Shown: positions 43,441 through 63,928 of the stretch, one piece after another | Numbering within the stretch: the stretch's first letter is position 1 | Layout of the letters: every line of letters begins with the position of its first letter | Notes under the pieces: model-generated | Told to the model about the DNA's origin: nothing | Seen by the model: the letters and a program-made list of their open reading frames with translations, nothing else | The model's database searches: none | Origin: Prolixibacteraceae bacterium | Lineage (GTDB): Bacteria > Bacteroidota > Bacteroidia > Bacteroidales > Prolixibacteraceae | Direction: 5' to 3' | DNA length: 64,000 nucleotides | Assembly (NCBI GenBank): GCA_019856515.1 | Contig: CP082230.1 | Location: 868,001-932,000, forward strand | Translations under genes and position numbers: made by a program

Positions 43441-43838
43441 GCCCCGAATGGGGTGACCGAACCTAGCCCAACGGTGAAATGAGTATGTTGCGCAGTAGCG
43501 CTGCATAGCAATGAGCCTTGGGTACACTGCCCATACAAAAACAAGGGCTGAAAGCCTGGCCCATCTTATCCATTCCACATCCAATACGACGTCGTTATAA
43601 TAAAAAAATCTGTGTTCATCTGTATCATCCGTTTCATCTGTGTTCCATCTCTTGCGTATCACCCCTTTGTACCTTCGTCTCTTTGGGCTTCATTTATATC
43701 CGCTGCTATTTTTTCGGACAGGCCTTCAGCCCTTGGTTGTGGGGGTACTTTTTACCCAAGGCTCCAACCGACACCTTGACCTTACGGTCAAGGTACGGTT
43801 TCCACCATTGGGCTAGATTCGGTCACCCCATTCGGGGC
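43441..43838. repeat. REP-like inverted pair inside the cluster
   Basis: A unit beginning GCCCCGAATGGGGTGACCGA (43441 on) and ending with AAGGGCTGAAAGCC (about 43543-43556) is followed by an opposed copy ending at 43838. Each unit contains self-complementary blocks, as in elements mobilised by Y1 (REP-associated) transposases. No such transposase is in the window. Confidence 0.65.
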
Positions 43839-43882
43839 TGTTGAAGTATTGAATAGGTTGTTACATCATAAAAAGATCCGTG
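43689..43882. repeat. Left arm of a 17-kb-spaced inverted repeat
   Basis: Its reverse complement matches 60636-60829 over 194 bases with roughly a dozen differences. The two arms enclose the whole defence island. Confidence 0.85.
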
Positions 43883-44801
43883 AAAATCAGTCTATTCCGT
43901 TGAATCCGTGGCTATAATTCCCGTGCACCCCATCCCTTCGTGTCTTTGCGTCTTCGTGGTGCTCTCCACCTTACGCTTCAACCACAAAAAAAAAAATCCG
44001 TCTCATCGGTGTGCCATCTCTTGCGCCTCAACCCTTCGTGTCTTTGCGTCTTCGTGGTGCTCTTCATCTTACGCTTCAACCACAATATAATCTGTGGCAA
44101 TCCGTCAAATCCGTCTAATCCATGGCTATAATTCCCGTGCACCCCAACCCTTCGTGTCTTTGCGTCTTCGCGGTACTCTTCATCTTACGCTTCATCCCTT
44201 CGTGTCTTTGCGTCTTCGTGGTGCGCTTCACCTGCCGTTTCAACCACAAAAAGATCTGTTTCATCGGTCTAACCTGTTTCATCTGTGTGCCATCCCGTTT
44301 GCTTCATCCCTTCGTGTCTTTGCGTCTTCGCGGTGCTCTTCATCTTACGCTTCAACCCTTCGTGTCTTTGCGTCTTCGTGGTGCTCTCCACCTTCCGCTT
44401 CAACCACAAATAAAATCAGTCTAATCCGTCTAATCCGTGGCTATAATTCCCGTGCACCCCAACCCTTCGTGTCTTTGTGTCTTCGTGGTGCTCTTCATCT
44501 TACGCTTCAACCACAAAAAAATCCGTCTCATCGGTGTGCCATCTCTTGCGCCTCAACCCTTCGTGTCTTTGCGTCTTCGTGGTGCTCTCCACCTTACGCT
44601 TCAACCACAATATAATCTGTGGCAATCCGTCAAATCCGTCTAATCCGTGGCTATAATTCCCGTGCACCCCAACCCTTCGTGTCTTTGCGTCTTCGCGGTA
44701 CTCTTCATCTTACGCTTCAACCACAAAAAAATCCGTCTCATCGGTGTGCCATCTCTTGCGCCTCAACCCTTCGTGTCTTTGGGCTTCATTTCACTTGCGC
44801 A

Positions 44802-45108: not shown

Positions 45109-47325
45109 TTACACTTTCACCTTCATCAACTCTGCCATAGAGACTGCAAAAGGCAATGCTGAACCTCTTCCCTTCTCATAACCATTAAGCGCTCGTATAT
45201 CCCACTGAAAGGTATTCACATGATCCTCTAAAGGCTTTAGCTTATATACCAAGTAATAATCATGATTAGGCTTACTATATCCATTTGCTATCATCGTAGC
45301 CTTAGAGAACACCCTCGGCCCTGTTTCTACAATATGATAAAGGCGATGCGCAAGTGTTTCTCCTTCCGAATGTAACAGTAAGTATTTAGCTCCTGCCACT
45401 TTGGGATCAATCTTCAAAGCCCCCCGCTGAGTTCCAGTTCTCGCATTATACAATAACCTATTTTCAATCCAATCCAATTGACCTTTCCTACAATAACCGA
45501 CCAACACATGAGTGTTATTAGGAAGATGGTCTCTATAGCTATCCGTGGTCTCCACCAAAGCCTCTTCCACTCGATCCTCACCATTAGGCTTTTGACGATA
45601 TACATCATAGGAGTGATAAGCCATCCTTTCTCTCTGAGAAGCACGATCCAAAAAATGATTTATAACTTCATCAATAAACTCTCTCAAGTCTTTGGTCCCA
45701 TCACTCCCTTTCGAAGGACATAAAGGGAATGCCCCTAACCCAGGTAGCACTTCATGAAAACCAGTTAAATGAGTAGACACATCACCAGGATAAAGTACAT
45801 AAGCCCCACCAGTACGACGAATTGCATCCTTATAAGCATGCATCTTAAGAATATCTTCCTTCTTATGGGAACGTTTTACCTCACCATCATCACTGTCCTC
45901 CAATAAAGCCCGAAAGTTGGCAAGCTTATATTTGGCATCAAAATGAATATGAACAATCAACTCCTCTTTTTCTGCCTCAGATTCATTCACTCCATATGGC
46001 CATAATGAGAGCGTATAATCAGGACGTAAACCACGACTCCAACTACCTGCCTCATGATAGTTGTTATTCTTACCAAAAGAACGATTATAGTTAAAACGAA
46101 CCAGTAGTTGTCGACTTCCCGAATCATACACACCACTTAATGCAGTGTGCTTTCCTTGCTTGAGCTGCAAACTTAAATCATCCGAAGAAGAGACTATTAA
46201 ACTATCCAGATCATCGTGGTCGATATCAAAAAAGTCACCAAACAGCTCCAATAACTTAAAGAAAACCCAATATTCATACAAAGTGGCAACATCACGTTTC
46301 CCTGCGGAATATACATCATCTCCACCTTTCCATACTAATTTCGAAGCCAAATCGAACATCAACCATGCTCGTAGTATCTCTCGATACCCCTCCTTTCGCT
46401 GTAATACAGGGCTATTGAGTTTCAATGTCTGAGGATTCGACACCTCTTTAAATAACCCATATTGCAAATAGCCATTCAACTTCTCCTCTAATGCTTTCGC
46501 CTCTTTCTCTAACGTCTTATGATTCTTTGCGGCTCTCTGTATCTCCATCATAAAGAATTGAAAAGAGCACAATGCATGCTTAACAAAACGATTCTCAGGC
46601 GTATCTACACTATCCTCCTTACGAGACGAAGAAACCTCTCTAGCCACACTCTCCACCCCATAACTTCGTAAAGGGTGATTTAAAGGAAGGTTCTCTCTAC
46701 AATTTGCAGAGACCATCTGTTTTACATTATGACTACGAAATCGACGAATCTTTCTTATATCCTTCTTTTCCTCTCTCTCTTTCCATTGTGTAACAGGTGC
46801 TGTTAATATACGTTGTATCGACTCTTCAAACTCAGAAGAACCTACCACTGAACGCACAAAACAGAATCTCTGATAAAGCGTTTCACTATCTTTATCAAAA
46901 TCGACATCAAAGAGTTGTGACACAGGAGAATCTGCCTGTAAAACCAAATCAACACATCGATCCGTAATATACTCCAACATATGACGATAATCTTCACGAT
47001 AGCTTGACTTAATCGAACGAACCTCCAGTTGAATTGTGCCCAAACACTCTGACTCTCGACACACCTTTAATGTCAATGTTCCAACATATATATTTGGCTC
47101 AATAGACCCTTCATTTTTCTTACGCTTATGAGGAACTACCACCTCACCAACCAAACTTAAGCTACTATCAGACAATTCATAATCATAACGACAGCCCTCA
47201 ACCATCTGATAACGAGCCTCACCAAACTGCTGAGCATCCTCACAATCAAATAGCGTATTATCGCTTCTCTCGTCCAAAAAGAGCTCTAACCCTTCCTGGA
47301 TATCATCTAACTTAATTGGCTTCAT
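45109..47325 (-). CDS. DUF2357 / PD-(D/E)XK nuclease subunit (McrC-like partner)
   Basis: 738 residues. The middle holds a DUF2357 region (T-P-E-N-R-F-V-K-H-A-L, and later L-Y-E-Y-W-V-F-F-K-L) and then a nuclease core: R-P-D-Y-T-L-S-L, then V-H-I-H-F-D-A-K-Y-K with Asp463 and Lys465, then D-I-L-K-M-H-A-Y-K-D-A-I. This gives the D...D-x-K triad with a following helix, as in DUF524-type PD-(D/E)XK enzymes. Such proteins pair with a McrB-like AAA motor and cut modified or foreign DNA. Its partner immediately upstream (11 bases) is only a C-terminal fragment, so the system is probably not working as a motor-driven restriction enzyme. The nuclease itself looks complete. Confidence 0.75.
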   Translation of the reverse strand: MKPIKLDDIQEGLELFLDERSDNTLFDCEDAQQFGEARYQMVEGCRYDYELSDSSLSLVGEVVVPHKRKKNEGSIEPNIYVGTLTLKVCRESECLGTIQLEVRSIKSSYREDYRHMLEYITDRCVDLVLQADSPVSQLFDVDFDKDSETLYQRFCFVRSVVGSSEFEESIQRILTAPVTQWKEREEKKDIRKIRRFRSHNVKQMVSANCRENLPLNHPLRSYGVESVAREVSSSRKEDSVDTPENRFVKHALCSFQFFMMEIQRAAKNHKTLEKEAKALEEKLNGYLQYGLFKEVSNPQTLKLNSPVLQRKEGYREILRAWLMFDLASKLVWKGGDDVYSAGKRDVATLYEYWVFFKLLELFGDFFDIDHDDLDSLIVSSSDDLSLQLKQGKHTALSGVYDSGSRQLLVRFNYNRSFGKNNNYHEAGSWSRGLRPDYTLSLWPYGVNESEAEKEELIVHIHFDAKYKLANFRALLEDSDDGEVKRSHKKEDILKMHAYKDAIRRTGGAYVLYPGDVSTHLTGFHEVLPGLGAFPLCPSKGSDGTKDLREFIDEVINHFLDRASQRERMAYHSYDVYRQKPNGEDRVEEALVETTDSYRDHLPNNTHVLVGYCRKGQLDWIENRLLYNARTGTQRGALKIDPKVAGAKYLLLHSEGETLAHRLYHIVETGPRVFSKATMIANGYSKPNHDYYLVYKLKPLEDHVNTFQWDIRALNGYEKGRGSALPFAVSMAELMKVKV

Positions 47326-47336
47326 AAATACACTCT

Positions 47337-47868
47337 TTAAGCCTCAGCATAACTCACAAAACCGTTATCCATAATACCGTCATACATCCTTAAAATCTTT
47401 TCAAGCGAAATAGGGTATTTGGCATTCTTCAAATCAAAATCTACTTTACCCAATACCTCACTTCGTACCTTAGCCACATCATAATCGTCAAAACAAAGAG
47501 TAGCCAACGTCTCTAACACAGGTTGTAATTTTCTGCGTGAACCATGTAATTTAGGAAGAAGTTTTTGCATAATCGCAATATCAATTCTTGCATCTAGACT
47601 TGTCATCCCAGAAGCATCAATCAACTTAAGCTTTTCTATCAAACAGATCATCTCATTGGCCGTACGATACCCAAATTCAGCACCACATCGACCTAACTCC
47701 TTAAAGAAGTCCATAAATACTTTTTTAAAGCATATCCTTTTCCCGTTTAGATTCACATCTTTAGCAATCATCAATGCCCCTTGCTCTAGAACCGAAAGAT
47801 CTACCTCGCTACGTGTAGCAAAATATCGAATGAGAAAGACAATCCTAAAAGATATAAGATTTTTTCAA
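47337..47868 (-). pseudogene. Truncated McrB-like AAA ATPase, C-terminal fragment
   Basis: The frame is open from about 47868 (after a TGA) to 47337; the only early starts are TTG 47774 and ATG 47771. The sequence F-G-Y-R-T-A-N-E-M, I-A-I-M-Q-K-L-L-P-K-L-H-G-S-R-R-K-L and L-E-T-L-A-T-L matches the last about 150 residues of McrB-type AAA proteins that accompany DUF2357 nucleases. Walker A and B motifs and the DNA-recognition domain are gone. The break lies about 120 bases from the methyltransferase gene, so insertion of the neighbouring restriction system may have removed the 5' part. A translated fragment from 47771 would be 144 residues. Confidence 0.65.
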
Positions 47869-47988: not shown

Positions 47989-49419
47989 ATGTCCAATTAT
48001 AGATATATTGACTTATTTTCAGGTGCTGGGGGGATCTCCATCGGTTTCGGAAACCATGATTTTCATTTGGAACTAGCAAATGATATCTTTTCGGATGCAT
48101 TAAACACGTTGAAATATAATCTAAAACATGCACATCCTGAGACAGATCCTTCTCGTGTTATATTAGGTGATATTAAAGAATTGTATAACTACTTAAATGT
48201 TAATGAAGTTGAAATTACAAACGAAAGTCATCTAACATTACAAACCAATAAGGATGCTAGAGTAAATAAACAGACTGCGTCAATTAAAGAAAATAAACAG
48301 ATAGAAGAAATAGTTTCTTCTATAAGAGATATAGATGTACTTGTGGGTGGACCCCCATGTCAAGGTTTTTCTCTTATCGGTAGAGCAAAAAAGGCTACCA
48401 AAGAAGAGAGAATGAAGGGATTTATCGATGATCCAAGAAATCAATTATTTAAATATTTTCTGAAATTTGCGGATAAACTTGCGCCCAAGATAGTTCTTAT
48501 AGAAAATGTTAAAGGCCTTGCATCCGCTTCTAAATATCGTGACCTCATAGAGGAAACATTGAGAAATACGGGAGTAGGGTACGATGTATCTTCAACTATA
48601 ATTAATGCTAAATATTTTGGAATACCTCAAAATAGAGAAAGAATATTTTTTATAGGTCTTCGTCGCGATATTTCAAATAATCATGATATATCTGCCGTAG
48701 ATATTTTTAATAATATCATTGAAAATAATAAATCTGAGGATATATTGACTCTCAACGATGCGATTAAAGATCTTCCTGAAGTTATCGCAAACCCTCTAAA
48801 ATCTAATTACGAAGTGAAAAATGAAATCCCGATAGGAAAAATTGATTCTTTCGGTCAAAATATATCTTCTGAAGAATACAGTCTCCTTATAGACGACAAT
48901 AATAAATCAAAATACACCAATATAATAAATACTTACAAGGGTAAAGACATTAAAACGAAATACCTTTTCAATCATAAAGCAAGGTATAACAACGAAAGAG
49001 ACTTATTTATATATAAGAACCTTGCTCATGGAAAATACCTAGATCATCCTGATAATGAGATGGCTTTGTCTAAGGTTCCTTATGGAATCTATTATGATGA
49101 GCAAGGAAAAAGATGTATCCGAAATTTTACAGATAAATATTTTAAATTAGATCCAAATAAGCCATCTAAAACTATCATTGCGCATCTTGAAGTTGATGGA
49201 AACTCTTATGTACACCCAGGTGATAAACCTCGTAGCATAACACCTAGAGAAGCTGCGCGTATTCAATCTTTTCCAGATTGGTACTTCTTTACTGGTACCA
49301 CGCGTAAACAACTTAAACAAATAGGTAATGCCGTCCCTCCTCTTTTAGCTTCTTATTTTGCCCAAGAATTTAAGAGAATTCTTTTAACTATTGACGAAAA
49401 CAATAATGATACAAAATAA
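47989..49419 (+). CDS. DNA (cytosine-5-)-methyltransferase 1 of the Z1-type RM system
   Basis: 476 residues. C5-methyltransferase motifs are in order: D-L-F-S-G-A-G-G (I), G-G-P-P-C-Q-G-F-S-L with catalytic Cys124 (IV), I-E-N-V-K-G-L (VI), P-Q-N-R-E-R-I-F-F-I-G (VIII), and I-G-N-A-V-P-P (X) at the end. The target-recognition region is between about 275 and 390. It methylates cytosine in host DNA to protect it from the nuclease encoded on the opposite strand. Its 3' end overlaps the second methyltransferase by 14 bases. It has an AT-rich, long Asn/Lys-rich insert at about 75-105, absent from most relatives. Confidence 0.9.
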   Translation: MSNYRYIDLFSGAGGISIGFGNHDFHLELANDIFSDALNTLKYNLKHAHPETDPSRVILGDIKELYNYLNVNEVEITNESHLTLQTNKDARVNKQTASIKENKQIEEIVSSIRDIDVLVGGPPCQGFSLIGRAKKATKEERMKGFIDDPRNQLFKYFLKFADKLAPKIVLIENVKGLASASKYRDLIEETLRNTGVGYDVSSTIINAKYFGIPQNRERIFFIGLRRDISNNHDISAVDIFNNIIENNKSEDILTLNDAIKDLPEVIANPLKSNYEVKNEIPIGKIDSFGQNISSEEYSLLIDDNNKSKYTNIINTYKGKDIKTKYLFNHKARYNNERDLFIYKNLAHGKYLDHPDNEMALSKVPYGIYYDEQGKRCIRNFTDKYFKLDPNKPSKTIIAHLEVDGNSYVHPGDKPRSITPREAARIQSFPDWYFFTGTTRKQLKQIGNAVPPLLASYFAQEFKRILLTIDENNNDTK

Positions 49420-50647
49420 GTTGACTTTTATAGATCTATTTTCAGGGTGTGGTGGACTATCTGAAGGTTTTCTTAGCAGCAATCTTTTTCACGGACTTGC
49501 TCATGTCGAATGGGAAAAGCCAATGGTTGATACGCTTCGAAATAGATTAAACACGCATTGGGATCACTCTACCGAAGAGGCTCAAAAAAGAGTGATTCAC
49601 TTCGATATACAACGTGTCGATCAGTTAATAAATGGAAATTGGGATACCAAAGCACTTAACGAATTCGAAGGATCAAATCACTCTGACATTGTTGAAAATG
49701 GACTAAATGCTATTATCAAAGAGGAGCCTGTTGATATAATCATTGGAGGGCCACCTTGTCAAGCATACTCGCTGGCTGGAAGAGCAAAAAATCCCCAAGG
49801 AATGAAAGATGATTATAGAAACTTCCTCTTCGAAAGTTTTGTTAAGATAGTAGATCACTATAAGCCCAAGCTCTTTGTTTTCGAAAATGTACAAGGGATG
49901 CTAAGTGCTAAACCAGGTGATGTTAATGTAACACAAAGAATATTCGATGCTTTTAATAAAATTGGGTACAATATTACAAAACCAGAGAACCTCAGAGAAT
50001 GTCTCTTAAATACTGATGATTTTGAGGTGCCACAGTCTCGTAAAAGAGTTATTATTATAGGTGTAAAAAACGATACTGAATACAATCTTAATACAATATA
50101 TAAAACGATAAACAAAAAAAAGACCAAAGAGAAGAAAACTGTTCGCGATGCTATTGAGCACCTTCCTTCTTTTGCACCTCTTTCTTTTCCTATAAACGTT
50201 GATGGTAAAAAAGTAGCATATAAGGCAACTTCTAATATTGAAGTGCCAAATCATTTTCCTCGATTCAATAACTTAAGAGATATTGCAATCTTTAAAGATT
50301 GGGTAGAATTAGAGATGAACAAGAAAACACAACAAGAAAAACTTGAATTCTATAAACAAAGAACAAATAGGTATTCCAATATTGTTAAATATCGATCCTT
50401 ATGTTGGGATAAACCCTCTCCAACAATTGTTGCACATCTCAATAAAGATGGATTGCTATTCATTCACCCAGATGCTCTTCAAAGTCGTTCTATTACTGTG
50501 CGCGAAGCTGCATTGTTACAATCATTCCCTATGGACTACAACTTTTGTGGCAGTCGTGGTGCTTGCTATAAGATGATAGGAAATGCTGTCCCCCCTCTTT
50601 TTGCAAAGAAAATAGCTATCGCAATTCATCAATATCTACATATGTAA
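49406..50647 (+). CDS. DNA (cytosine-5-)-methyltransferase 2 of the Z1-type RM system
   Basis: 413 residues from ATG 49406; the frame opens at TTG 49391, but the ATG gives the normal motif I spacing (F-I-D-L-F-S-G-C-G-G). Catalytic Cys118 is in G-G-P-P-C-Q-A-Y-S-L, motif VI is F-E-N-V-Q-G-M, motif VIII is P-Q-S-R-K-R-V-I-I-I-G and motif X is I-G-N-A-V-P-P. It differs clearly from the first enzyme in its recognition region, so the pair may protect two strands of an asymmetric site or two sites. Translational coupling with the first gene is indicated by the overlap. A bidirectional terminator follows. Confidence 0.9.
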   Translation: MIQNKLTFIDLFSGCGGLSEGFLSSNLFHGLAHVEWEKPMVDTLRNRLNTHWDHSTEEAQKRVIHFDIQRVDQLINGNWDTKALNEFEGSNHSDIVENGLNAIIKEEPVDIIIGGPPCQAYSLAGRAKNPQGMKDDYRNFLFESFVKIVDHYKPKLFVFENVQGMLSAKPGDVNVTQRIFDAFNKIGYNITKPENLRECLLNTDDFEVPQSRKRVIIIGVKNDTEYNLNTIYKTINKKKTKEKKTVRDAIEHLPSFAPLSFPINVDGKKVAYKATSNIEVPNHFPRFNNLRDIAIFKDWVELEMNKKTQQEKLEFYKQRTNRYSNIVKYRSLCWDKPSPTIVAHLNKDGLLFIHPDALQSRSITVREAALLQSFPMDYNFCGSRGACYKMIGNAVPPLFAKKIAIAIHQYLHM

Positions 50648-50676
50648 TTGTTAAAAGGTATCCTTAATTTAAATAA

Positions 50677-50720
50677 ATAGGCAACATAATATATCATCTA
50701 CAATCTATTATGTTGCCTAT
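50677..50720. terminator. Bidirectional terminator between convergent RM genes
   Basis: A perfect 15-bp stem (50677-50691 with 50706-50720) and a 14-nt loop, placed between the methyltransferase and AIPR stop codons. Confidence 0.8.
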
Positions 50721-50723
50721 GTT

Positions 50724-53096
50724 TTATACATTCATTTTAAACTTTCTTGAAACAATATCTAGTGCATCTTTAACAATAGTTATCCTTTGAATATCGACCT
50801 CTTCTCCTTTTAATATATACTTCGATACAACTCTAATTGTACTTACTTGCTTGTAGCTTAATGCTCCACTCTTTTCTCCTAATGAAATAATTCTTTGCCA
50901 AGTAGAAGAGTTTATTTGTTTTAACCTAGCATGTAAACTTGCTGGATCTAATAAATTATCTTGTTTTACTTTACTCAGTGCTTCTACATCCTCTACAGTT
51001 GTTCCTTCTTTGATGAACTTATCTAAAATAACTTGGCCCTTATCAATTTCTCGTTGGGTGAGGTTCTTATTCGTTTTTAATTTCCCTCGTATCGATATAA
51101 TAATATTTTGCTCTACATCCGTATATAATTCATGTCGCATCATAAAAAGACATAATCCATCCCAAAATTTTAAACCGATATTATTTATACGAGCAAGTTT
51201 CTCTAATTTAGCTTCAACCACAAGACTGTCTTTGTCTTTTGCGTAACGTTTCCTGTAGTCTCTTTCTGTGATCAGATAGCTCTTTACAACATCCATATCC
51301 ATCGGATTTATAGCTTTTGTTTGTTTTAGTATATCCTCCCATGTCTTTTCTTTTTTTGCTGCTTCACTGACTAACGCAACATTTAAGCTCGTTAAATATT
51401 CATAAATTACAATCAATAACTTTCGCAACTCTACAATTAACTCTTGAGAAACTTCTTGTTTGTTCCAAATCTGCTCAAAATTTAATTTATTCTTTGTTAT
51501 ATGATGAAAAAATGAAATAGTATACGCTACTGTATGTGACTTTATATTTGTGTCTCCAATAGCATCTTTACCTTTTCTACCAAATTGTTGATCTATCGCT
51601 TTAAATAGTAAGGAGTTTGCTATTAAGTCTTCCCAATATGTTCTTCCAGGCAAATCCTTCTCTCCTTCTTTTATATGTTTTATGAAGTCAACATAATTCT
51701 TTTGTGCTCCTCGCGATACCATAAAAGGTTTAAGTGCCAATAAATTCTGATATTTTGACACATCCGATTTTATTATAATCTGATTCTTTGGATATTTAAG
51801 AGAAAAAGCATCTTTCCTACTTTTTGTTGGCTCTTTATTCAACGACTCTTTATATTGTCCTCTTACGCGTTCAAAAAACCATATCGTTTGCTTATTACGA
51901 TTCTCTGGATTTATTGCATACGTTACTCGAGACAACTCTTCTAGCCTCTGTAGAAATGGATGATTTGATGTTAAATCTACTTCTGAAACCTTATTCTGAC
52001 TATTCGCATATCTTGATATCTTAGGAACAATATCATTTTTCAATGTCACATCCTTTATCTCGGTAAGCTTCATCTGTACATACACTCTATTTAAATCAGC
52101 CTTATATTTCCTCTCTGTATGAAATAATGATGCAGTTGTTTGTCCTCCATTTACAATCTGAAAATCTTTTAAACTTGTTATATATTGTTGGTTATCCTTT
52201 GTTTCGATTACAACATTTTGTGCTGTGGCCGATAAACCATTGTTATAAGGAAGAAACATCCCTGGTTCTATCTGTATTGTTTCTCGCATTCCTTTATTTA
52301 TCTTTCCTGCTTGCTGTAGAAATGCGCGAACATTACTCTCTAGTAGTTTTGTTCCATAATTACGATACAAAAGAGATAACAAAGACCCTTCAATAATAGC
52401 TAAATAACAATCATACTTTTCTTCATATGAAGGCATCTTTAAACAGGGTATAGAATACTTTCTATCTAATGTTGCTAGATCAATCTCTATCGGCTCTCTG
52501 TTACCTTGCGATTCATGAAGCCTTTGAAATCGTTCTATATCCCAAATGTTCACAGAAAAATATATACTATCTAAGTTCTTTACTTTATAATCTGCATCAA
52601 ACTCTTGTTTTATTATCCCATTAGTCAGTACAAACAAATTAACTCTAATAATATCATTTCTATTCTTGAATAAGATTTTTGCTAGTCCATAAGCTTCAGA
52701 GGAAGGTTCCAATTCTTCTAAATAGCCTTTGATAGAGTCATTAACAAACTTACTCGACCATTTCAAGAGATTCGCCACATCACTTTTCTTCAACTCATAC
52801 AATTCATTTGTATCCTTATACGAAGAGATGAAAATATCAATATTTTCATATTGGTCATCTAATGAATAGCCATTGATTTTGTAAACAACCTGCTCTTTGG
52901 TGTTTTCTTTTAAATAAAAGCAAACTCTACAACTTTCGGTCTCCTCGGCATCATTTAATATATTTAGAACATGTGAAGTGAATTTATTTTCTTTGGTATC
53001 TCCTTCTTCGTCTGAATATACCAAAGACTCAACCTCATGAAACATCTCTTGCTGATACTTCTCTAAATCTATATTGTACGGTTTTAGTTTGCTCAT
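50724..53096 (-). CDS. AIPR-family protein (abortive-infection phage-resistance type)
   Basis: 790 residues. The AIPR domain (about 220-480) is marked by L-L-E-S-N-V-R-A-F-L-Q, the phrase F-L-P-Y-N-N-G-L-S-A-T-A, and F-Q-I-V-N-G-G-Q-T-T-A-S-L, followed by K-I-S-R-Y-A-N-S-Q-N-K. The N-terminal 200 residues contain Y-E-L-K-K-S-D, which could be the remains of a PD-(D/E)XK fold. AIPR proteins are known from phage-resistance loci and from this Z1-ATPase class of RM systems, with an unproven biochemical role. It is the last gene of the four-gene operon and starts with a 1-base overlap (TAATG) with the nuclease gene. Confidence 0.85.
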   Translation of the reverse strand: MSKLKPYNIDLEKYQQEMFHEVESLVYSDEEGDTKENKFTSHVLNILNDAEETESCRVCFYLKENTKEQVVYKINGYSLDDQYENIDIFISSYKDTNELYELKKSDVANLLKWSSKFVNDSIKGYLEELEPSSEAYGLAKILFKNRNDIIRVNLFVLTNGIIKQEFDADYKVKNLDSIYFSVNIWDIERFQRLHESQGNREPIEIDLATLDRKYSIPCLKMPSYEEKYDCYLAIIEGSLLSLLYRNYGTKLLESNVRAFLQQAGKINKGMRETIQIEPGMFLPYNNGLSATAQNVVIETKDNQQYITSLKDFQIVNGGQTTASLFHTERKYKADLNRVYVQMKLTEIKDVTLKNDIVPKISRYANSQNKVSEVDLTSNHPFLQRLEELSRVTYAINPENRNKQTIWFFERVRGQYKESLNKEPTKSRKDAFSLKYPKNQIIIKSDVSKYQNLLALKPFMVSRGAQKNYVDFIKHIKEGEKDLPGRTYWEDLIANSLLFKAIDQQFGRKGKDAIGDTNIKSHTVAYTISFFHHITKNKLNFEQIWNKQEVSQELIVELRKLLIVIYEYLTSLNVALVSEAAKKEKTWEDILKQTKAINPMDMDVVKSYLITERDYRKRYAKDKDSLVVEAKLEKLARINNIGLKFWDGLCLFMMRHELYTDVEQNIIISIRGKLKTNKNLTQREIDKGQVILDKFIKEGTTVEDVEALSKVKQDNLLDPASLHARLKQINSSTWQRIISLGEKSGALSYKQVSTIRVVSKYILKGEEVDIQRITIVKDALDIVSRKFKMNV

Positions 53097-54088
53097 TACA
53101 TATAAAAATTAAAATCAACACCAAAGTCTTCACAATGCAAATCTTCGGATACTAAACTGACCTTATATTTAACTCCCTTCACGAGTGGGTTTAACATCTC
53201 TCTTGTTATGCGTGGGAATTTATTATTGATAGTATACACCTGTAATTTATCTACTTCAAAACTTTTAGTATCATAAATTGATGCATCAAAAACTCCAATC
53301 TCATTAAGCTTCTGATAAAATAAATCTTTCGTCTCCCAATTAGCTCCTAAAAATTTATCAATCTCTTCAATAGCCCGACTTAACGTGTTATCTCCTTCAC
53401 TATTCTCATGAACATAAACTACACATAATTTTAAATACTCAAATTTAGTATAGTCTAATTGATCCTCATTACTAATCGTTATAACCTTCTCATTTAGCTT
53501 ACTGCTTTTTACTTCTATTCTCCGATCCTTATATTTAAAATCATGAAGTTCTCCCAATGGTCCTCTCCATGATTTTAAAACTTTACAATGATCTGTCTCT
53601 TTTTCTAATAACCTTCGAAGAATATAGATTTCGCTATATAAACCTTGCTCTTCCTCTCTACTTAATTTTTTCTGATATACTTTAGAAAAAAACTTCCCCC
53701 AATACTCCAATCTTTGTTTGAAGCATTCTAATAGCAAGTCGGGCTCTTTAAACTTACTTAAACTTACAATCAAATCTTCAATGAAGATCGTATAAATATC
53801 CATTGAATCTTTCTCATTCAATGAGATAACCAACATTTGTGGACTATTATCCTCTAATGGTATAATACTTACTCCATTTAACCTTTTCTCTGTAAACTTA
53901 AAACCTTCTGATTCTAGAGTGTTTTTTAAAATAAAGACTCGACTATTTGTATTTACAGTCGAACCTATTTCACACGCATAACCTCCAAAAATTGCATAAA
54001 GTTGAGTCTGAAACAAAGATTCAGTCTTATTTGTATTTTGGGTCTCAATTCTATCCCAAATAGCTTCTAGTTTAGTCATCACATTCAT
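53096..54088 (-). CDS. DUF4420 PD-(D/E)XK restriction endonuclease
   Basis: 330 residues. The nuclease core has Glu153 in G-L-Y-S-E-I-Y-I-L, then W-R-G-P-x-G-E-L-H-D-F with Asp183, and R-I-E-V-K-S-S with Glu192 and Lys194, the E-D-E-x-K pattern of PD-(D/E)XK enzymes. This is the DUF4420 family, identified as the restriction component of the MORC/Z1 systems. It would cut DNA that lacks the cytosine methylation laid down by the two methyltransferases, powered or gated by the GHKL and Z1 ATPases. It overlaps the Z1 gene by 17 bases and the AIPR gene by one base. Confidence 0.85.
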   Translation of the reverse strand: MNVMTKLEAIWDRIETQNTNKTESLFQTQLYAIFGGYACEIGSTVNTNSRVFILKNTLESEGFKFTEKRLNGVSIIPLEDNSPQMLVISLNEKDSMDIYTIFIEDLIVSLSKFKEPDLLLECFKQRLEYWGKFFSKVYQKKLSREEEQGLYSEIYILRRLLEKETDHCKVLKSWRGPLGELHDFKYKDRRIEVKSSKLNEKVITISNEDQLDYTKFEYLKLCVVYVHENSEGDNTLSRAIEEIDKFLGANWETKDLFYQKLNEIGVFDASIYDTKSFEVDKLQVYTINNKFPRITREMLNPLVKGVKYKVSLVSEDLHCEDFGVDFNFYM

Positions 54089-56819
54089 CTATATCATCAT
54101 CTTCTTGGCCTTCATATGCATCAGACAATGGCCTTACTTGATATTCGACCTTCTCCTCATTAGGTATGTTCGGTAATAATATATCCCATCCAACAACAAT
54201 TTCATTCTTTAATTCTTCTTTATCCTTATCAGGATGTTTCATTCGCATTGGGAAAATAGTTAACAAAGAGCTCTCTTCTATTTCTCTAACTTTCTTTATC
54301 TCGGCAGTAGTCTCTTTCCCTTTTAAATTAAGATCTACAACACGATCTTCTGTTCCAGAAATATTGTTCGATTTTAATCTATATGTCAATAGTCTTTCAT
54401 GACTCATCTCTTCGGCATAACTTCTTTGCGGTAAACCGACACTATAGAGTTCGCCTCCAACACTAAGACACTCAGGATCAGATACAGAACTAAAGCGAAG
54501 AACAATAGTCCATTTAGTAAGCTTATTTCCCTTGTTTTGTGTGGAAATATAAGTACTTATACTATTCATTGAGATAGCTGGAATATCACTCTGATATTCT
54601 GTGATAAAATCGACAACAATAGAAGGACAAACATCTCTAAAAATCATTCTATTGATTTTACCTTTTACATATTCAATTTTCGGTTTGCCTAAGACATTTA
54701 TAAGGTTTTGAAATACTATTAAATTAGTATCTGTATATTTCTTAGGCAACTCATAAGTCTGAATATGTGCTCCTGAAAATCCAACATGTTCTTTCTCTGA
54801 GAATCCTAATTTTCCAGCCGATGTGATATTCAACATGCCCTGATGCGTTCGTACTTTTAACTTATAATCTTTAGGTTGCTTGTTCATAGATCCCATTGTA
54901 TCTATATCTCTTCGCATTTCTTCTGTCGCTAGTGCAATATGCATATACCAATTACATAACTCTTCGGTTGTATATACTCTACATAAATCCGCATATCCTG
55001 GTCTATATCCAAACCAACGCCCCATCTGTAATAATGTATCATAAAGTGGTGAAGTCCTTAAAAAATAACTCACACTCAATCCCTCTAATGTTATTCCTCT
55101 AGAAAGTCTATTTCCTCCTACTGCGATTACAGATAACCCTTGATCTTTATAATCTTCATAATTTAAAGATGTCGTATTTGTATACTCTAAACCTCTTCTT
55201 TTAGGTTGTCCATGTATTGCTCTAACTTCTATTTTTGATACTGCTTCGTGTAGATGCTTTTTTACTTCATCCCAAGAATGTCTAACTATTTTGTGATCCT
55301 TATAATTTAAAACACTACTTACATTATCTGTTGTTGGCAGATAATCTTGTTCATATAGCTGCTTTAGTTCTTCTATTAAAGGCCCATCATTTGAACTTAT
55401 CTGATTCTTATAATCATACAAAACTTCATCAACCAGCAATGCAATCCTATCAATCCAATTAATCAGTAACGCAACATGTATAAGCATCGAGTTATCTTTT
55501 TTCGCATCGCCTCTTAAAATACGGACACTACAACTTAAAATAAACGACTTAATCGCCTCTTTTAAACTATCAGGAACTCCATCAGGTAAATTATTCTTGG
55601 TCTCTCTAGTATATTTTTTTGGGAAATAAGGCTCTTGATCTGTTATCGACCTTATTAAATCCATCCCTTCTACATTTTCACCCGTAATACTATCAGAAAA
55701 ACCGAAGTATTCCGACGCTCCAATATAATTTGTTGGTGGTGGTATATTAACAATAAAATCTCTCGGAAATAGATCCTCACCCACTTTTAAATTATATCCT
55801 TTTATTTGAGTACTATAATCCTTGTCATACTCCGAACCAATAAAAAGATTTGCATAGGGCGTTGCTGTATATCCTATAAAACTATTCTGATTAAATAAAT
55901 TTAAAAGGGTTCTTATTAATCCATTTATTGTCTTAATCTCCTGATCCTTGCCTGTATTTACAGAAGCATTATCTGCTTCATCATCGATTAATAACATAGG
56001 AGCATCAAATATTTTTAAATCTCCTTCCGAATTCTCTCTTGCAAAACCGGCAAACCAAGAAATCAAATTCTCTAAAATACTCTTATTCTTCTTTATCACT
56101 AGAATTGTTGGATGGGCTCCTCCAATAGGTACATTAAGCTTTTCCGCAAATGATTTTTTAAAATCACCATTATGTTCCGAAGAGGTATAAGAGTAGATCT
56201 TAGTCTTTGCTGATGTGTTACCAACTCCAATATTTTTACTCTTTTTATTCTTTAGCAATGAAGAACTATCATTTCCAACATATCCCTCATCAATACGTCT
56301 TTGCGTCTGTGCTCGTAAAGAATTGTGTATACCTGCTATTACTATAATTACTCTATAACCTACATCTGTAGCTTTATTTATTAATGTAGTATAATTAACC
56401 GTTTTTCCCGATTGAACATTACCAACAACCATTCCTCTTCGATCCCAAGCTCCTAGTGTTGATGGATCAATACATTTATCTAAAATCTTATCTGTAACTC
56501 CATCTATGGAGTTTATTTTTAGATAAGGTGAGGTTTTTTTTAGATGTAGAAAAAATCGTTTTGTTAGTTCAAATTCATAACTACTCTTTTTCCCCATCAA
56601 CCATGGCTTTACTTCATCGTTGACAAGAAACGAGCTCTCTCTTTCTTTTACAGAAAAATCTTCTTCTAGTTTCTGTAATAACAAATCCTTATCAACATAT
56701 CCAGTAGAAATACTTACTGCTCTTTCAATAACTTCAATTATCTTGTCTTTCGATATATTCTTTTCATTGTCTAGTAGAACATGGGCAATAGTCAATATAT
56801 CTGTTGGTATACTATTCAT
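54072..56819 (-). CDS. Z1-domain ATPase of the RM system
   Basis: 915 residues. The P-loop G-N-V-Q-S-G-K-T is at 133-140 and the Walker B motif L-L-I-D-D-E-A-D at 276-283, with helicase-like I-G-Y-T-A-T-P-Y-A-N-L and, later, L-S-R-G-I-T-L-E-G-L-S-V-S-Y-F and Q-M-G-R-W-F-G-Y-R, which serve as motifs III and VI. The Z1 domain occupies about 400-640. It resembles superfamily-2 helicases and is thought to move along or remodel DNA for the nuclease. It begins with a 1-base overlap (TAATG) with the GHKL ATPase gene, which shows strict co-translation. The acid-rich C-terminus (D-D-D-I-D-E-C-D-D) is notable. Confidence 0.9.
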   Translation of the reverse strand: MNSIPTDILTIAHVLLDNEKNISKDKIIEVIERAVSISTGYVDKDLLLQKLEEDFSVKERESSFLVNDEVKPWLMGKKSSYEFELTKRFFLHLKKTSPYLKINSIDGVTDKILDKCIDPSTLGAWDRRGMVVGNVQSGKTVNYTTLINKATDVGYRVIIVIAGIHNSLRAQTQRRIDEGYVGNDSSSLLKNKKSKNIGVGNTSAKTKIYSYTSSEHNGDFKKSFAEKLNVPIGGAHPTILVIKKNKSILENLISWFAGFARENSEGDLKIFDAPMLLIDDEADNASVNTGKDQEIKTINGLIRTLLNLFNQNSFIGYTATPYANLFIGSEYDKDYSTQIKGYNLKVGEDLFPRDFIVNIPPPTNYIGASEYFGFSDSITGENVEGMDLIRSITDQEPYFPKKYTRETKNNLPDGVPDSLKEAIKSFILSCSVRILRGDAKKDNSMLIHVALLINWIDRIALLVDEVLYDYKNQISSNDGPLIEELKQLYEQDYLPTTDNVSSVLNYKDHKIVRHSWDEVKKHLHEAVSKIEVRAIHGQPKRRGLEYTNTTSLNYEDYKDQGLSVIAVGGNRLSRGITLEGLSVSYFLRTSPLYDTLLQMGRWFGYRPGYADLCRVYTTEELCNWYMHIALATEEMRRDIDTMGSMNKQPKDYKLKVRTHQGMLNITSAGKLGFSEKEHVGFSGAHIQTYELPKKYTDTNLIVFQNLINVLGKPKIEYVKGKINRMIFRDVCPSIVVDFITEYQSDIPAISMNSISTYISTQNKGNKLTKWTIVLRFSSVSDPECLSVGGELYSVGLPQRSYAEEMSHERLLTYRLKSNNISGTEDRVVDLNLKGKETTAEIKKVREIEESSLLTIFPMRMKHPDKDKEELKNEIVVGWDILLPNIPNEEKVEYQVRPLSDAYEGQEDDDIDECDD

Positions 56820-58297
56820 TATTTCAAAGTTTCTATAATTTGTGGTATTTCGTTGAATGGCTCCATATTTAGGATACTCTGCTTTGCTATCTCATCTGAG
56901 ATCCCTGAAGTAATATATAAATGATATATTTTCTTAGCCTGTTCAATCTCCTCTTGAAGTGGTTCTCTTTTCTTATCTTTTAATTCAGAACTTAATGGGT
57001 CCTCACAAAATTGATGTATTATAGAATCAACAGGTAAAGTCCTCGAAACTAAATTTAAAAGTGTTATTACATCTTTTCTGCTGATAGTATTTGACTCAAG
57101 CAAACTATGAATAACAGGATGCTCTTCATTTATCTTATAATCAATAGTGTCATCTCTTCTTTTTGTCGATTTCCAAACACTCTTAAAATCAACAAACTTT
57201 GCTCCCTCTTTTCGTATCTGTTCTCCTCGATATTTATATATCTGCGAAGCTTGACTCCTTACAAGCCTACCTATCCTTTTTAAATCCTGCTTTATCGAAA
57301 CGGGAGGCATAGCAGTTGCCTTTTTTATATCGATCTTCCACTCATTATCCAAATGATTAGGGATATCTATTAAAATACGCCCATTCTTACAATGCTCACT
57401 CTTTGGAAATAAACCCAACCAATCTCCACTTAATAGCAAGCGTTGATTCCTATAAATATAAAAACCTTGCATCTTATACCACGACTCTACATCATTATCT
57501 CTTCTCTCTTCTGCTGTCAATTTTGAGATATGTGGTAACACAAACCCCTTCACCTTTATTTCATTAGATAGCTCTTCGGATAAGATTGTTTGTGTCTCTA
57601 TAAAACTTCTTAAAAATGGATCTCTCGATTTAATCTCTCTGTCGTTAATATACAACTGAATTCCTTTATTATCAATATAACGATGAAAAACTAAACCTAA
57701 ATGATCCTCAACGAGTTTCATCTCATGCTGAAAAGCTTTGCGTTGTTCTTCATTTAAAACATCACATGGCCCAATCAACCGGTCTAATGATTCCCATAAA
57801 ACTACAGTTCCTTGATCATGACCATCAAGAAGTTTTGAAAAAGAAATATCAGAACAATAATCTAACAAGCTCCACTCACTAGTACTATTCACATAATCTA
57901 AATCCCAACACCTTTTTATTGTTTGGTAATTTAGTTTCTTCGATATTACTGTTAAAACTTTACACTGCGAAAATGAAGATGTTTTCAACCCTAGTCCAAA
58001 ACGTCCTAAATCATCCTGCTCTCTTTCTAATTTAGGATCTTTACTTCCAGGCGTCATTGCACAAATCAAATCATTAAGGTCCATGCCTTTCCCATCATCC
58101 TTTATCCAAATATAGCTCCGATCTCCTTTCCATTCATGTTTAATCTCAATTCTCTTTGCTTGTGCTGAAATACTGTTATCTACAATATCAGCAACAGCAG
58201 TCTGAAGATTATAACCAAATGCTCTAAATGTGTTTATCATAGCATTGGCCTTTGGTGGGGTTACCTCTGCTTTATATTGATCTAAATTAGTCATCAT
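56819..58297 (-). CDS. GHKL (MORC/MutL/HSP90-like) ATPase of the RM system
   Basis: 492 residues. The Bergerat-fold motifs are complete: D-I-V-D-N-S-I-S-A at 37-45, D-D-G-K-G-M at 67-72, and G-R-F-G-L-G-L-K at 98-105. An S5-like domain and a helical tail follow. In the predicted MORC-type RM systems this protein is the clamp-like ATPase, proposed to dimerise on ATP binding and close around DNA. It is the first gene of the operon, with about 690 bases of non-coding DNA upstream before the next recognisable element. No exact TAnnTTTG promoter was found. Confidence 0.9.
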   Translation of the reverse strand: MMTNLDQYKAEVTPPKANAMINTFRAFGYNLQTAVADIVDNSISAQAKRIEIKHEWKGDRSYIWIKDDGKGMDLNDLICAMTPGSKDPKLEREQDDLGRFGLGLKTSSFSQCKVLTVISKKLNYQTIKRCWDLDYVNSTSEWSLLDYCSDISFSKLLDGHDQGTVVLWESLDRLIGPCDVLNEEQRKAFQHEMKLVEDHLGLVFHRYIDNKGIQLYINDREIKSRDPFLRSFIETQTILSEELSNEIKVKGFVLPHISKLTAEERRDNDVESWYKMQGFYIYRNQRLLLSGDWLGLFPKSEHCKNGRILIDIPNHLDNEWKIDIKKATAMPPVSIKQDLKRIGRLVRSQASQIYKYRGEQIRKEGAKFVDFKSVWKSTKRRDDTIDYKINEEHPVIHSLLESNTISRKDVITLLNLVSRTLPVDSIIHQFCEDPLSSELKDKKREPLQEEIEQAKKIYHLYITSGISDEIAKQSILNMEPFNEIPQIIETLK

Positions 58298-59462
58298 TAA
58301 AAATTAATCAATTAGTCTACCACAATATCTTATACCTCAACAAAAATTCTTTCTGATATTTTTTCAGTTAGTTCATTTTAACTAAAATATATCCTTTATA
58401 TTTAATCTCCGATTTTTTGGTCTTAAAAATAACTATGTTTCGCCTACAACACCCTTATTAATAATTATTCTAACAATAATACTTTTTTTTAATCTTAAGC
58501 ACCACTTCTTATCTAATATACAATATCGAACCCCTAGCTATTCTAAACACAGATCGCTATCATAAAACCATTCTTCGATTTTCTTCCACAATTACAATTG
58601 GTACATAGCCCTATTTTTCACGTATCACTTATTGCAAAAATATTCATTCTATATTTACTTATTACACATGAGTAATTCAGGAATCAACCCGACGAGAGTG
58701 TAACAACATTCTTACTTTTACAAAACAATAAAAGTAAGACTATAATACATAATTGATTGTGATATATTACCGTAGGGTTAATTAAGCACTTTCATATTTT
58801 GTGTTATCTACACTCAAACATTTCCGTGTATAATAAATTTATTATGAATACAATATGGTAAATTTTGATTAAACATAACGACGTATATTAAACAAGTTGA
58901 CATACTTCCTTCAAAATATTCTTCTGAATACTAGACAGGTTAAACTTTAAATTTCAAGATTGGCACCAATTTTAACAACTACAAATTCTATAATACATTA
59001 ACATTTAATTCTTATTTCTTTACTCAAGCCATTTTATATAAAAAAGTACTTATTATCAAAACAATTCATTTAAATATTACATATTAAAAAAAGATAAAGA
59101 CTGAAATCTATTCAAGGTTAAACTGCATAGAGTGCGGGGCTAACCAAATATTACTCGTCGAAAAAAGGTGGTAGGGATCAACAATTATTTGCTACAATTC
59201 TTCAGGCTACAACAAACACAACACTCTTTATTTCAAATAAATAGCCATTTTATCTTTGTACTACCCTCAGGTTTTTATATATTTAGAGAGATCCGAGACT
59301 GCATTTAACTCAAGGTGTCTTCTCAAAATAGAGAGTATATATTGATTATCACAATGGAAAAACAGCGATACATATCCACAAATTACACTTCACGACATCA
59401 CACATTTAGGGATGTAGTTTCACATGACTTTCTAGGTACCTACTCCCACCTTCCTAGCACCC

Positions 59463-59585
59463 TTCTCCTACCTTTGTCCATGGTTCGTCCATGGTTTATC
59501 CATGGTTTGTCCATCGATTTCGGGGGTATCGGTGCCTGAACCATGGACGAATCATGGCTAAACCATGGACAAAGGTGGGAGGAGA
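59463..59585. repeat. CCATGG-studded inverted repeat
   Basis: The ends ACCTTTGTCCATGG (59470-59483) and CCATGGACAAAGGT (59563-59576) are perfect complements. Inside, CCATGG recurs at 59489, 59500 and 59541, with one-off variants at 59511 and 59552, spaced 11-12 bases apart on each arm. It can form a long imperfect cruciform. Confidence 0.75.
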
Positions 59586-59795
59586 TACCTATCATCTAGC
59601 TAGTAGGTAATGAGGAGGTGTAAAGAAAAAAGGGGTGAAATACATTTGACAGTGCTCTCCGTATGCCTCCACAGAGACACAAATTTATCCGAATAAACTC
59701 TAAATCAAAGATATACAATAATTTCCACATTATAATGCTTCTGTCATGATGAATGATGAGGTATTTATTATTCCGTGCCCCTATCTTACGATCTC

Positions 59796-59970
59796 GATAT
59801 CCCCTACCCCTGACCAACAAGCCAGTTTCCCCTGAGATAGCTCGAAATTCACTCAATGTTCATTCGAAGTTCATTCATCGATTTTGCATTTTGGGTGAGG
59901 GAATTTCGAATGTATTTAGATGGATATGTAAAAGAAGTCAGGGGGTAGTGATATGTATGTCAGGGGAAAG
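59796..59970. repeat. Second imperfect inverted repeat
   Basis: CTACCCCTGAC near 59807 faces GTCAGGGGGTAG near 59938, and TCGAAATTCACTC (about 59842) faces GAGGGAATTTCGA (about 59897). The arms are interrupted. It could be a small non-autonomous mobile element. Confidence 0.45.
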
Positions 59971-60067
59971 CGGCTTTTAAGAGTTTTTCTCTTGGAGATC
60001 ATGCGATCTTATCACTGGGGCAGGATAATTATCAGAATAGCTCTCTATTCATAGGTCTCAATATTTT

Positions 60068-60424
60068 TTATGATACGATGTGCTGGTTGGAGTGTCTCCA
60101 ACCGACCATTCCTTCTACCATATGGTAGATCTTTTTGAAGTCAGACTGTTGCATCCATTGTACGATCATCGTACTTCTAACATTGGTGGTGCAATAGACT
60201 AGATAAGGAACTTCACGATCTAGTTGACCTAGCTCCACTCCGGTATCTGGGTTGAAGGCATCAAATAATTGAGCTCCTTCAAGGTGCCCCTGCCTATATG
60301 ACTCTATACTACGCCCATCTATGACTTGTAGTTCAGGTATGGATGCCATCAAATCAGCAGCCTCTGCTACTGTGACAGGCTCTATTATCCTGTCGTTGTG
60401 ATCTAAATATATCTCTTTGCTCAT
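60068..60424 (-). CDS. Rhodanese-like single-domain protein
   Basis: 118 residues, no signal peptide. A single rhodanese domain: V-I-D-G-R-S-I-E-S-Y-R-Q-G-H-L-E-G-A-Q at 34-52 and the active-site loop Y-C-T-T-N-V-R-S with Cys78, then M-V-E-G-M-V-G-W. Such proteins carry a persulfide on the Cys and pass sulfur to acceptors, or act as sulfide-stress or tRNA-thiolation helpers. The loop (six residues, C-T-T-N-V-R) is the normal sulfur-transfer length. It stands alone between the RM region and a repeat cluster. Confidence 0.8.
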   Translation of the reverse strand: MSKEIYLDHNDRIIEPVTVAEAADLMASIPELQVIDGRSIESYRQGHLEGAQLFDAFNPDTGVELGQLDREVPYLVYCTTNVRSTMIVQWMQQSDFKKIYHMVEGMVGWRHSNQHIVS

Positions 60425-60544
60425 CGTCTCTTTCTCTTTTAGTGGTTCTGGATATCACCAAGTGGAATAACCTTCTTGTGATCCATCTATTTTACTTGGC
60501 TTTCAAACAAAAACAGATCAATAATGTTCTGTGCTCACAGAAAA

Positions 60545-61060
60545 ACATGAAGCCCAAAGAGAAATTGCCACGGATCTTTCTGTGGTTGAAGTGTAAAGAA
60601 TTATAGCCACGGATTGGACGGATTTGACAGATTACCACGGATCTTTTTATGATGTAACAACCTATTCAATACTTCAACAGCCCCGAATGGGGTGACCGAA
60701 TATAGCCCAATGGTGGAAATCATAACTTGACCACAAGGTCTAGGTGTCGATTGGAGCCTTGGGTAAAGAAGTACCCCCACAACCAAGAGCTGAAGGCCTG
60801 TCCGAAAAAATAGCAGCGGATATAAATGAACCACGTAGAGGCGCGATGATCGCGTCTACTCGATACTTCAACAGCCCCGAATGGATGTGGTGGAAAGAAT
60901 TATGCCACGGATTGGACGGATTGCCACGGATCTTTTTGTGGTTGAAGCGGAAGGTGGAGAGCACCACGAAGACGCTAAGACACGAAGGGGTGAAACGGCA
61001 GGTGGAGAGTATCGCGAAGACGCTAAGGGATGAAGTGCGAAGGAGATGAACAACGAAGGG
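60545..61060. repeat. Second mosaic repeat cluster, opposite orientation
   Basis: Contains the same modules as 43.07-44.8 kb but as reverse complements: GCCACGGATTGGACGGAT (three versions), CACGGATCTTT, the REP-like CCCCGAATGGGGTGACCGAA unit, CACGAAGACGCTAAGACACG and GGCGCGATGATCGCG. Short frames on both strands here are not genes. Confidence 0.9.
60636..60829. repeat. Right arm of the 17-kb-spaced inverted repeat
   Basis: Reverse complement of 43689-43882 over 194 bases with about a dozen differences. Confidence 0.85.
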
Positions 61061-61227
61061 TTGGGGATAGTGTTTCTTGGGGGATTAGTATAGGTGATGT
61101 CAATACTACTTTGAGGTGCGTCTCATCTATTTTTGCAAAATATTTGTAATAGTATGAGATTTACTTCAAAGTAGTTTTGATATGTTTCTGGGGAATAGGG
61201 TTGATGAAAGAGGGACTCTCTACATAT

Positions 61228-62358
61228 CTAACGTCGGGTGTAGATAATACCTCCTAAGATGGCTGTTATTGGAGCCACGAGTACCAGACCAAAGCTTCCA
61301 ATCATGGTGTGTAAGATCTCTCCTGCCACATAGTTCAGATTAAGAATGTTTATGGTAGGGGTTCCTTGTGCAATAAACACCATCAATAAGGCACTAAAAC
61401 CACCAGAGTATGCAAGCAGTAAGGTGGTGGTCATTGTGCCGATAACCCCTCGCCCGATATTAAAGCCTGCACCAATAAGTTCTTTTGTGGTGATAGATGG
61501 TTTGATGGTTATAATCTCATGTTGGGATACTGCAATATCCATGGATATATCCATCATGGCTCCCGAAGAGGAGATAAAGATACTAGCCAAGAATATCTGG
61601 GTTAAGTCCAAATGGTTAAAACCAGAGTATAACAGGGTCTCCGAGAATGGTTTTATCGCCCCATGGACGTTAAACAAACCACCAAAGAAGAAAGAGAGGA
61701 TGGCTGTAACTGCAACGCCTACAATAGCACCAGATAATGCTACAAAACCCTTCTTATTAATTCCAGCAACCAAGAGGATGATCACCGAGGTGATCAGCGC
61801 AACCAAGAACAGAGATAGAAAGACTGGGGAGTAGCCTAATAAGAAGCCAGGAAGCATTAGTTTCCATATAACAACTCCGGTGAATGCAAAAGAGAGGATG
61901 GCTTTGACTCCTATAAAGCCAGCAAAGGATATAAGAAACACAAAGAATAGTATCATCAACCAAAACTCTACATTCAATCGATAATGATCAATAACATTGG
62001 CATTAATTATCTTTGAACACTCTTCATCAAGGTTCAATACGACCAAGGCCTTCTGCCCTACTTCAAACAGTTTATCGAACTCCATTCGCCCAATCAATTG
62101 ATTGTTTGCTCGGATGGTATCACCTTTAAAGCGGCCTTCTGTAACTACTATTTGCAGCAGTTGATTCCCGGTCTTTATGATCCCGTTTTCAATAATACTA
62201 TCATCTTTCACAGATACCACTTTTGCTTTAACTCTCCGCTCTGAAGGAGGAGTCTCTCGATCGAAAGGAGATGGTAGAAGATAGATAATAGTTGTGAGTA
62301 TTGCTATGACCAATGGGAAGAGGTAGGTCTTTGTTTTCTGGGTAGATAATATCTTCAT
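61228..62358 (-). CDS. YibE/F-family membrane protein
   Basis: 376 residues. One N-terminal helix is followed by a soluble domain of about 100 residues (V-K-A-K-V-V-S-V-K-D-D, then V-V-L-N-L-D-E-E) and about seven membrane helices. The conserved YibE/F block is L-A-S-I-F-I-S-S-S-G-A-M-M-D-I-S-M-D-I-A, with G-R-G-V-I-G-T-M-T-T-T-L-L-L-A-Y and G-E-I-L-H-T-M-I-G-S-F-G. The family has no proven substrate; transport or signalling roles are guesses. It lies 55 bases downstream of the alkaline phosphatase gene, separated from it by a hairpin, so read-through co-expression is possible. Confidence 0.85.
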   Translation of the reverse strand: MKILSTQKTKTYLFPLVIAILTTIIYLLPSPFDRETPPSERRVKAKVVSVKDDSIIENGIIKTGNQLLQIVVTEGRFKGDTIRANNQLIGRMEFDKLFEVGQKALVVLNLDEECSKIINANVIDHYRLNVEFWLMILFFVFLISFAGFIGVKAILSFAFTGVVIWKLMLPGFLLGYSPVFLSLFLVALITSVIILLVAGINKKGFVALSGAIVGVAVTAILSFFFGGLFNVHGAIKPFSETLLYSGFNHLDLTQIFLASIFISSSGAMMDISMDIAVSQHEIITIKPSITTKELIGAGFNIGRGVIGTMTTTLLLAYSGGFSALLMVFIAQGTPTINILNLNYVAGEILHTMIGSFGLVLVAPITAILGGIIYTRR

Positions 62359-62370
62359 AATTTACAAGCA

Positions 62371-62399
62371 TGGTCCTGTTATAAAGAATAACAGGACCA
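62371..62399 (-). terminator. Hairpin between the alkaline phosphatase and YibE/F genes
   Basis: A perfect 12-bp stem (62371-62382 with 62388-62399) with a 5-nt loop. The T run after it on the minus strand is weak, so partial termination is likely. Confidence 0.6.
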
Positions 62400-62413
62400 G
62401 TATTTATTTGTTA

Positions 62414-63928
62414 TTACAGTTTCATTAGCATTTCAATATTCTTAGGAAGATCAGTGTTATCAAAATAACCATTAAACAGTGTTGATCCAGGCCCCATAGC
62501 TCGAACTGGTATTGGTGTCGCGGTATGAGAGAAAGTGGTCCATCCGATACCTGCTTTTTGTGCTAAGATATGGCTTGCAGTGATAGTAATTGGATCTATA
62601 GCACCATAAAGTTGATAATATTGGTCTTTATTGGCAATCTGTTCTCCTTTGTCAAAACTTTCGTTATAAGCTTGTTTCAGTTGTGCTAGTTCATATTCAG
62701 AAAGCTTGGTTGACTTCTCTTCTCCATCAAAGCCATAATTCTTTCTTACGGCCTGTAATACGGCATCAAAAGAAGCATCTTGTTTCTTTAATTTCTTCAA
62801 TTCAGCATTGAAAACCCCATTAGAGTTCTTTTGATTCTCAAGCAATTTAAAGTTGGATTTGTAGTGAGACCCTGAGAAACCAAGTGTTAACCCACCTGTT
62901 TCATGATCTCCACAGACTACAATAAGAGTCTCTTTTGGATGTTCGTGATAAAAAGCGATAGCTTTTTGAATGGCTTGGTCAAATTGAATCACTTCGTTTA
63001 TAGCTGTCACAGCATCGTTGGCGTGACAAGCCCAATCAATTTTACCCCCTTCGACCATTAGGAAAAAGCCTTTCTTATTCTCTAACACCTCAATAGCCTT
63101 TTGTGTGTAATCCCCCAAAGAGAGATCACCCTCTTTCTGATCGATACCATTAGGTAGTGATTGTCCTCCTGCAAGAGTTTCGTTGATGGCAATAATTTTA
63201 TCATCTCCTGATTTAATTGCATGGAAAGCCTCATTGGTGTTCACGATAGTATACCCCTGTTTCTCAGCTAATTTCAGAGAGTTCTCTTTTTTACCTTTTA
63301 TTTTCTTATTTCCAGCCATACCAATGTTAGCTGCCTTATTCTTCTTGTTTGACTTGCCATCTCCCTCTGGGTGCATGATACCACCTCCACCGAAGAAGTT
63401 AAATTGACTTTTTCCCATATCTACACTAATGTCATAGTAACGACCTCGCGAAGGCTGATGCGCATAGAATGATGCAGGGGTAGCATGGTTTAAAGAGACT
63501 GAACTTACAATCCCCACACGATAGCCTTTATCTCTTGCTTTTTCTGCAATAGTTTTAAAGGGCTTCTGTTTTGATGCGTCCATACCGATAGTACCGATAG
63601 ATGTTTTATTACCTGTCGACAATGCTGTTCCTGCAGCTGCCGAACCCGTAATAAATTGGTTTTGTGCATATGTTGTATACAATCCTTGTATCGGAAATGT
63701 ATTCATCGCTAATTTCTGAATTCCTTCGGAATCATTTACAGCTGCCATATATGCTTCTGTTGCATTCGATTGTGAAAGGCCAAAACCATCACCAATAAAG
63801 TAGAAAACATATTTAGGTTTCTTACCTCTAAAACTATCACGTTTTTTATCTCCGTCATTTGGTTGTGTTGCAAAAAGCATCTGAATCGATAAAAGACAAA
63901 TGCATAATAAAGAAAATCTTCTTTTCAT
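62414..63928 (-). CDS. Alkaline phosphatase (PhoA superfamily), secreted
   Basis: 504 residues with a signal peptide (M-K-R-R-F-S-L-L-C-I-C-L-L, cleavage near L-F-A-T-Q). Motifs are F-I-G-D-G-F-G (zinc ligand Asp), the nucleophile region T-G-S-A-A-A-G-T-A with Ser96, H-A-T-P-A-S-F-Y-A-H, V-E-G-G-K-I-D-W-A-C-H, G-D-H-E-T-G-G and the late H-T-A. It hydrolyses phosphate monoesters in the periplasm to supply phosphate. The residue before Ser96 is Gly where E. coli has Asp. A Lys/Asn-rich insert at about 190-225 is a likely surface loop. Its promoter region runs to the window end. Confidence 0.85.
   Translation of the reverse strand: MKRRFSLLCICLLSIQMLFATQPNDGDKKRDSFRGKKPKYVFYFIGDGFGLSQSNATEAYMAAVNDSEGIQKLAMNTFPIQGLYTTYAQNQFITGSAAAGTALSTGNKTSIGTIGMDASKQKPFKTIAEKARDKGYRVGIVSSVSLNHATPASFYAHQPSRGRYYDISVDMGKSQFNFFGGGGIMHPEGDGKSNKKNKAANIGMAGNKKIKGKKENSLKLAEKQGYTIVNTNEAFHAIKSGDDKIIAINETLAGGQSLPNGIDQKEGDLSLGDYTQKAIEVLENKKGFFLMVEGGKIDWACHANDAVTAINEVIQFDQAIQKAIAFYHEHPKETLIVVCGDHETGGLTLGFSGSHYKSNFKLLENQKNSNGVFNAELKKLKKQDASFDAVLQAVRKNYGFDGEEKSTKLSEYELAQLKQAYNESFDKGEQIANKDQYYQLYGAIDPITITASHILAQKAGIGWTTFSHTATPIPVRAMGPGSTLFNGYFDNTDLPKNIEMLMKL

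Follow-up and report, generated by a model that had tools for sequence, protein, structure and literature searches.

What kind of system is encoded by six adjoining genes in the 64,000-nucleotide stretch of a Prolixibacteraceae bacterium genome analysed here (contig CP082230.1, positions 868,001 to 932,000; hereafter the window), and is anything in it new? The genes, all of them intact, make up a predicted DNA-restriction cluster whose kind had been described before; what is new is a cassette of two paired methyltransferases, and the exchange of that pair between restriction cores. A first-pass annotation had read the locus as two C5-cytosine methyltransferases (here M1 and M2) with a four-gene operon, and this was borne out by Pfam and PADLOC profile matches (Table 1): the four consecutive operon genes find their best PADLOC matches in MzaB, MzaC, MzaD and MzaE, with the order kept. 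Neighbouring operon genes overlap by 1-17 bases, and M1 and M2, which overlap each other, lie tail-to-tail to the operon.

Pairing of the two methyltransferases

In this cluster, protection would come from a pair of cytosine methyltransferases, against a single one in its relatives; each of the 59 well-flanked relatives has only one. Judged by sequence, the same M1-M2 pair adjoins a very distant version of the restriction core at locus L225; in both places the two genes overlap, and the two cores show low mutual similarity. M1 is 61% identical to its L225 counterpart and 57-66% identical, across most of its length, to its best full-length database relatives, and M2 has relatives at 56-61%, L225 included. 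Each gene also occurs without the other: L232 harbors an M2 relative (60%; 53% in the recognition region) without M1, and L227 an M1 relative (47%) without M2. A search for M1 at 1e-80 over 397 genomes, apparently including that of L232, returned two matches only. Relatives of both methyltransferases were further found on database contigs of equal size, namely 9,700 (P0009 and P0212) and 16,346 (P0062 and P0158), the equal size being an indication of a shared contig.

Motifs I, IV, VI, VIII, IX and X were all located in M1, which has a long recognition region (approximately residues 230-410); that of M2 spans approximately residues 233-360. M2 overlaps the M1 stop and, if started from the alternative TTG at 49391, would comprise 418 amino acids. 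Since M1 and M2 are the only C5-methyltransferases detected in the host, a single methylome could show their target or targets, be it one asymmetric site or two sites. Two M2-like methyltransferases, P0140 (718 amino acids) and P0155 (713 amino acids), carry about 300 additional residues at the C terminus.

We also considered whether an ancestral single methyltransferase survives as a remnant upstream of the GHKL gene (58.2-61.3 kb). This was rejected: queries taken from seven relatives (methyltransferase, Vsr and NOV_C proteins) and from L040 (two further upstream proteins) gave no tblastn match better than E 0.07; the M1-M2 stretch, serving as control, yielded seven matches.

Table 1. Genes of the cluster and, as context outside it, of the module at its left edge (positions in the window)
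Feature	Length (amino acids)	Position	Strand	Evidence
McrB-like AAA ATPase gene, 3' remnant (context)		47340..47861	-	tblastn of the L244 McrB-like protein
DUF2357 + PDDEXK_7 (McrC-like) protein, full length (context)	738	45109..47325	-	PF09823 3.8e-43; PF04411 2.5e-26
M1, C5-cytosine DNA methyltransferase	476	47989..49419	+	PF00145 5.9e-60
M2, second C5-cytosine DNA methyltransferase	413 (from ATG)	49406..50647	+	PF00145 1.6e-60
AIPR protein (MzaE-like)	790	50724..53096	-	N-terminal PD-(D/E)XK-like fold domain, then AIPR domain
DUF4420 nuclease (MzaD-like)	330	53096..54088	-	PF14390 4.2e-53; MzaD 4.4e-24
MzaC-like core gene		54072..56819	-	Best PADLOC match MzaC
GHKL ATPase, MORC family (MzaB-like)	492	56819..58297	-	PF13589 2.5e-31; MzaB 6.1e-95

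Relation to described systems

The cluster shares all four core families, in the same order, with mzaABCDE (PADLOC/NCBIfam), and the window proteins match MzaC and MzaB across nearly their whole length, yet they fall far under all four NCBIfam equivalog cut-offs (bits versus cut-off: MzaB 370.5/850, MzaC 567/1500, MzaD 113.9/420, MzaE 329/1050; MzaB 371 bits when rounded). MzaA, a sigma factor according to PMC9523054 (Nat Commun 2022), had no match among the eight proteins scanned (for the methyltransferases, among 25 of about 60 families listed), nearby short open reading frames (ORFs) lying outside the scan. As that paper describes them, the mza genes do not include methyltransferases, of which our cluster has two; its putative 'type II' defence system is given there with one cytosine methyltransferase, as against the two overlapping genes lying tail-to-tail to the operon here.

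The first-pass annotation had also assigned the cluster to the MORC ATPase restriction class predicted by Iyer, Abhiman and Aravind in 2008 (PMC2292703). As a filing this was largely correct; the kind is already known, and the interpretation as a whole is supported in part. From the third type of those operons the cluster differs by (i) two methylases, (ii) the lack of a Vsr gene and (iii) an Asp at the general-base position of the GHKL protein. CglI and NgoAVII are different in that their nuclease is of the PLD+B3 type, GHKL and AIPR proteins are lacking and a single methyltransferase acts on GCSGC. Two 5-methylcytosine (m5C) methyltransferases are likewise found in LlaJI, where they serve one asymmetric site (PMC1459862).

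Core proteins and mode of action

The DUF4420 protein has a predicted nuclease centre, E153-D183-E192-x-K194, whose four residues are identical in 87/87 aligned sequences, and its structure model (predicted local distance difference test score 91.0) weakly resembles PvuII, SwaI and HincII. The AIPR protein is retained beside DUF4420 in most loci; its nuclease-like domain has no conserved ExK. An alternative is that the cluster mainly serves abortive infection, the methyltransferases setting a threshold and AIPR and GHKL killing or arresting the cell without site-by-site cutting of incoming DNA. The retention of AIPR and its family name (abortive infection phage resistance) would fit; the name, however, is an annotation rather than a test, and both the missing ExK and the invariant DUF4420 centre speak against it, so that we regard this alternative as unlikely and favor restriction.

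AIPR residues 301-350 were tried as a specificity determinant and rejected. Sequence segments there passed a max-statistic permutation (0/200, r up to 0.39), but the signal is probably a lineage effect, because the excess of 12-15 points shrank to about 5.5-7 once controls came from the same loci and the stretch consists largely of a conserved motif; moreover, the pairs are non-independent (30 loci, with L127 in 16 of 72 pairs).

The GHKL protein, which matches human MORC2 by sequence at 3e-5, harbors the ATP-binding motifs DN, DGxGM, GxxGxGxK and T164. The S5-domain signature (GhXhhpXXRhl) is present as GFYIYRNQRLL at 278-288, with G278, Y282, R283 and R286 identical in 93/93 aligned sequences. 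In the N box, the general-base position, usually Glu, is occupied by D37, and by Asp in all 93 aligned homologs, which may confer slow or switch-like ATP turnover on this MORC branch. One core protein carries DTLLQMGRWFG at residues 594-604.

Left edge and surroundings

Directly left of the cluster lies a restriction module that is probably disabled. The McrB-like remnant corresponds to residues 396-579 of the 579-residue L244 protein (45% identity, at 47861-47340); the rest of that protein has no match of meaningful E-value in the window, other tblastn matches being at 1.4 or worse. An ORF of 145 amino acids at this place (47337-47774, from TTG) encodes the C terminus of an McrB-like AAA protein: it is matched by 575 of 589 candidates, many called McrB by their source, and in five other genomes of the family the match falls in ORFs of 225-776 amino acids. 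The DUF2357/PDDEXK_7 protein shows 51-54% identity to the partner of intact McrB-like genes in L244-L246. In two of these three loci the gene ahead of the McrB-like one encodes a methyltransferase (C5 in L244, D12-type in L246; a peptidase in L245), so the module is probably LlaJI-like, its head lost where the cluster begins, 128 bases before M1. A LlaJI-like pair of McrB-like and nuclease subunits, both intact, is lacking here, only the last third of an McrB-like protein remaining next to DUF2357. An annotated DNA methyltransferase also precedes DUF2357 in both plasmid regions inspected. Head loss would be favored, since E. coli McrBC can kill cells acquiring m5C methylation, an argument weakened by homologs without such killing in the same study (PMC2614495). 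The module was rejected as a core part of the cluster: with profiles built on the window genes, DUF2357 was detected in three loci (window, L078 and L079) and the 145-residue ORF in the window only.

Upstream of the operon, 58300-60060 is an AT-rich stretch of about 1.7 kb with no ORF above 90 amino acids, in which a long, imperfect inverted repeat occupies 59462-59584. Inverted copies of a repeat dispersed genome-wide flank the cluster and its neighbour module at about 43200-44740 and 60570-61040 (e.g. 132 nucleotides at 83%), and are possibly recombination points; positions 60000-63900, used as query, matched the host genome 153 times, and this repeat accounts for most of the matches listed. 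A YibE/F and alkaline phosphatase gene pair is present in two host copies (61228-63928 and G000:C1:480389-483035; 71% DNA identity) and was seen in a single copy in each of three same-genus genomes.
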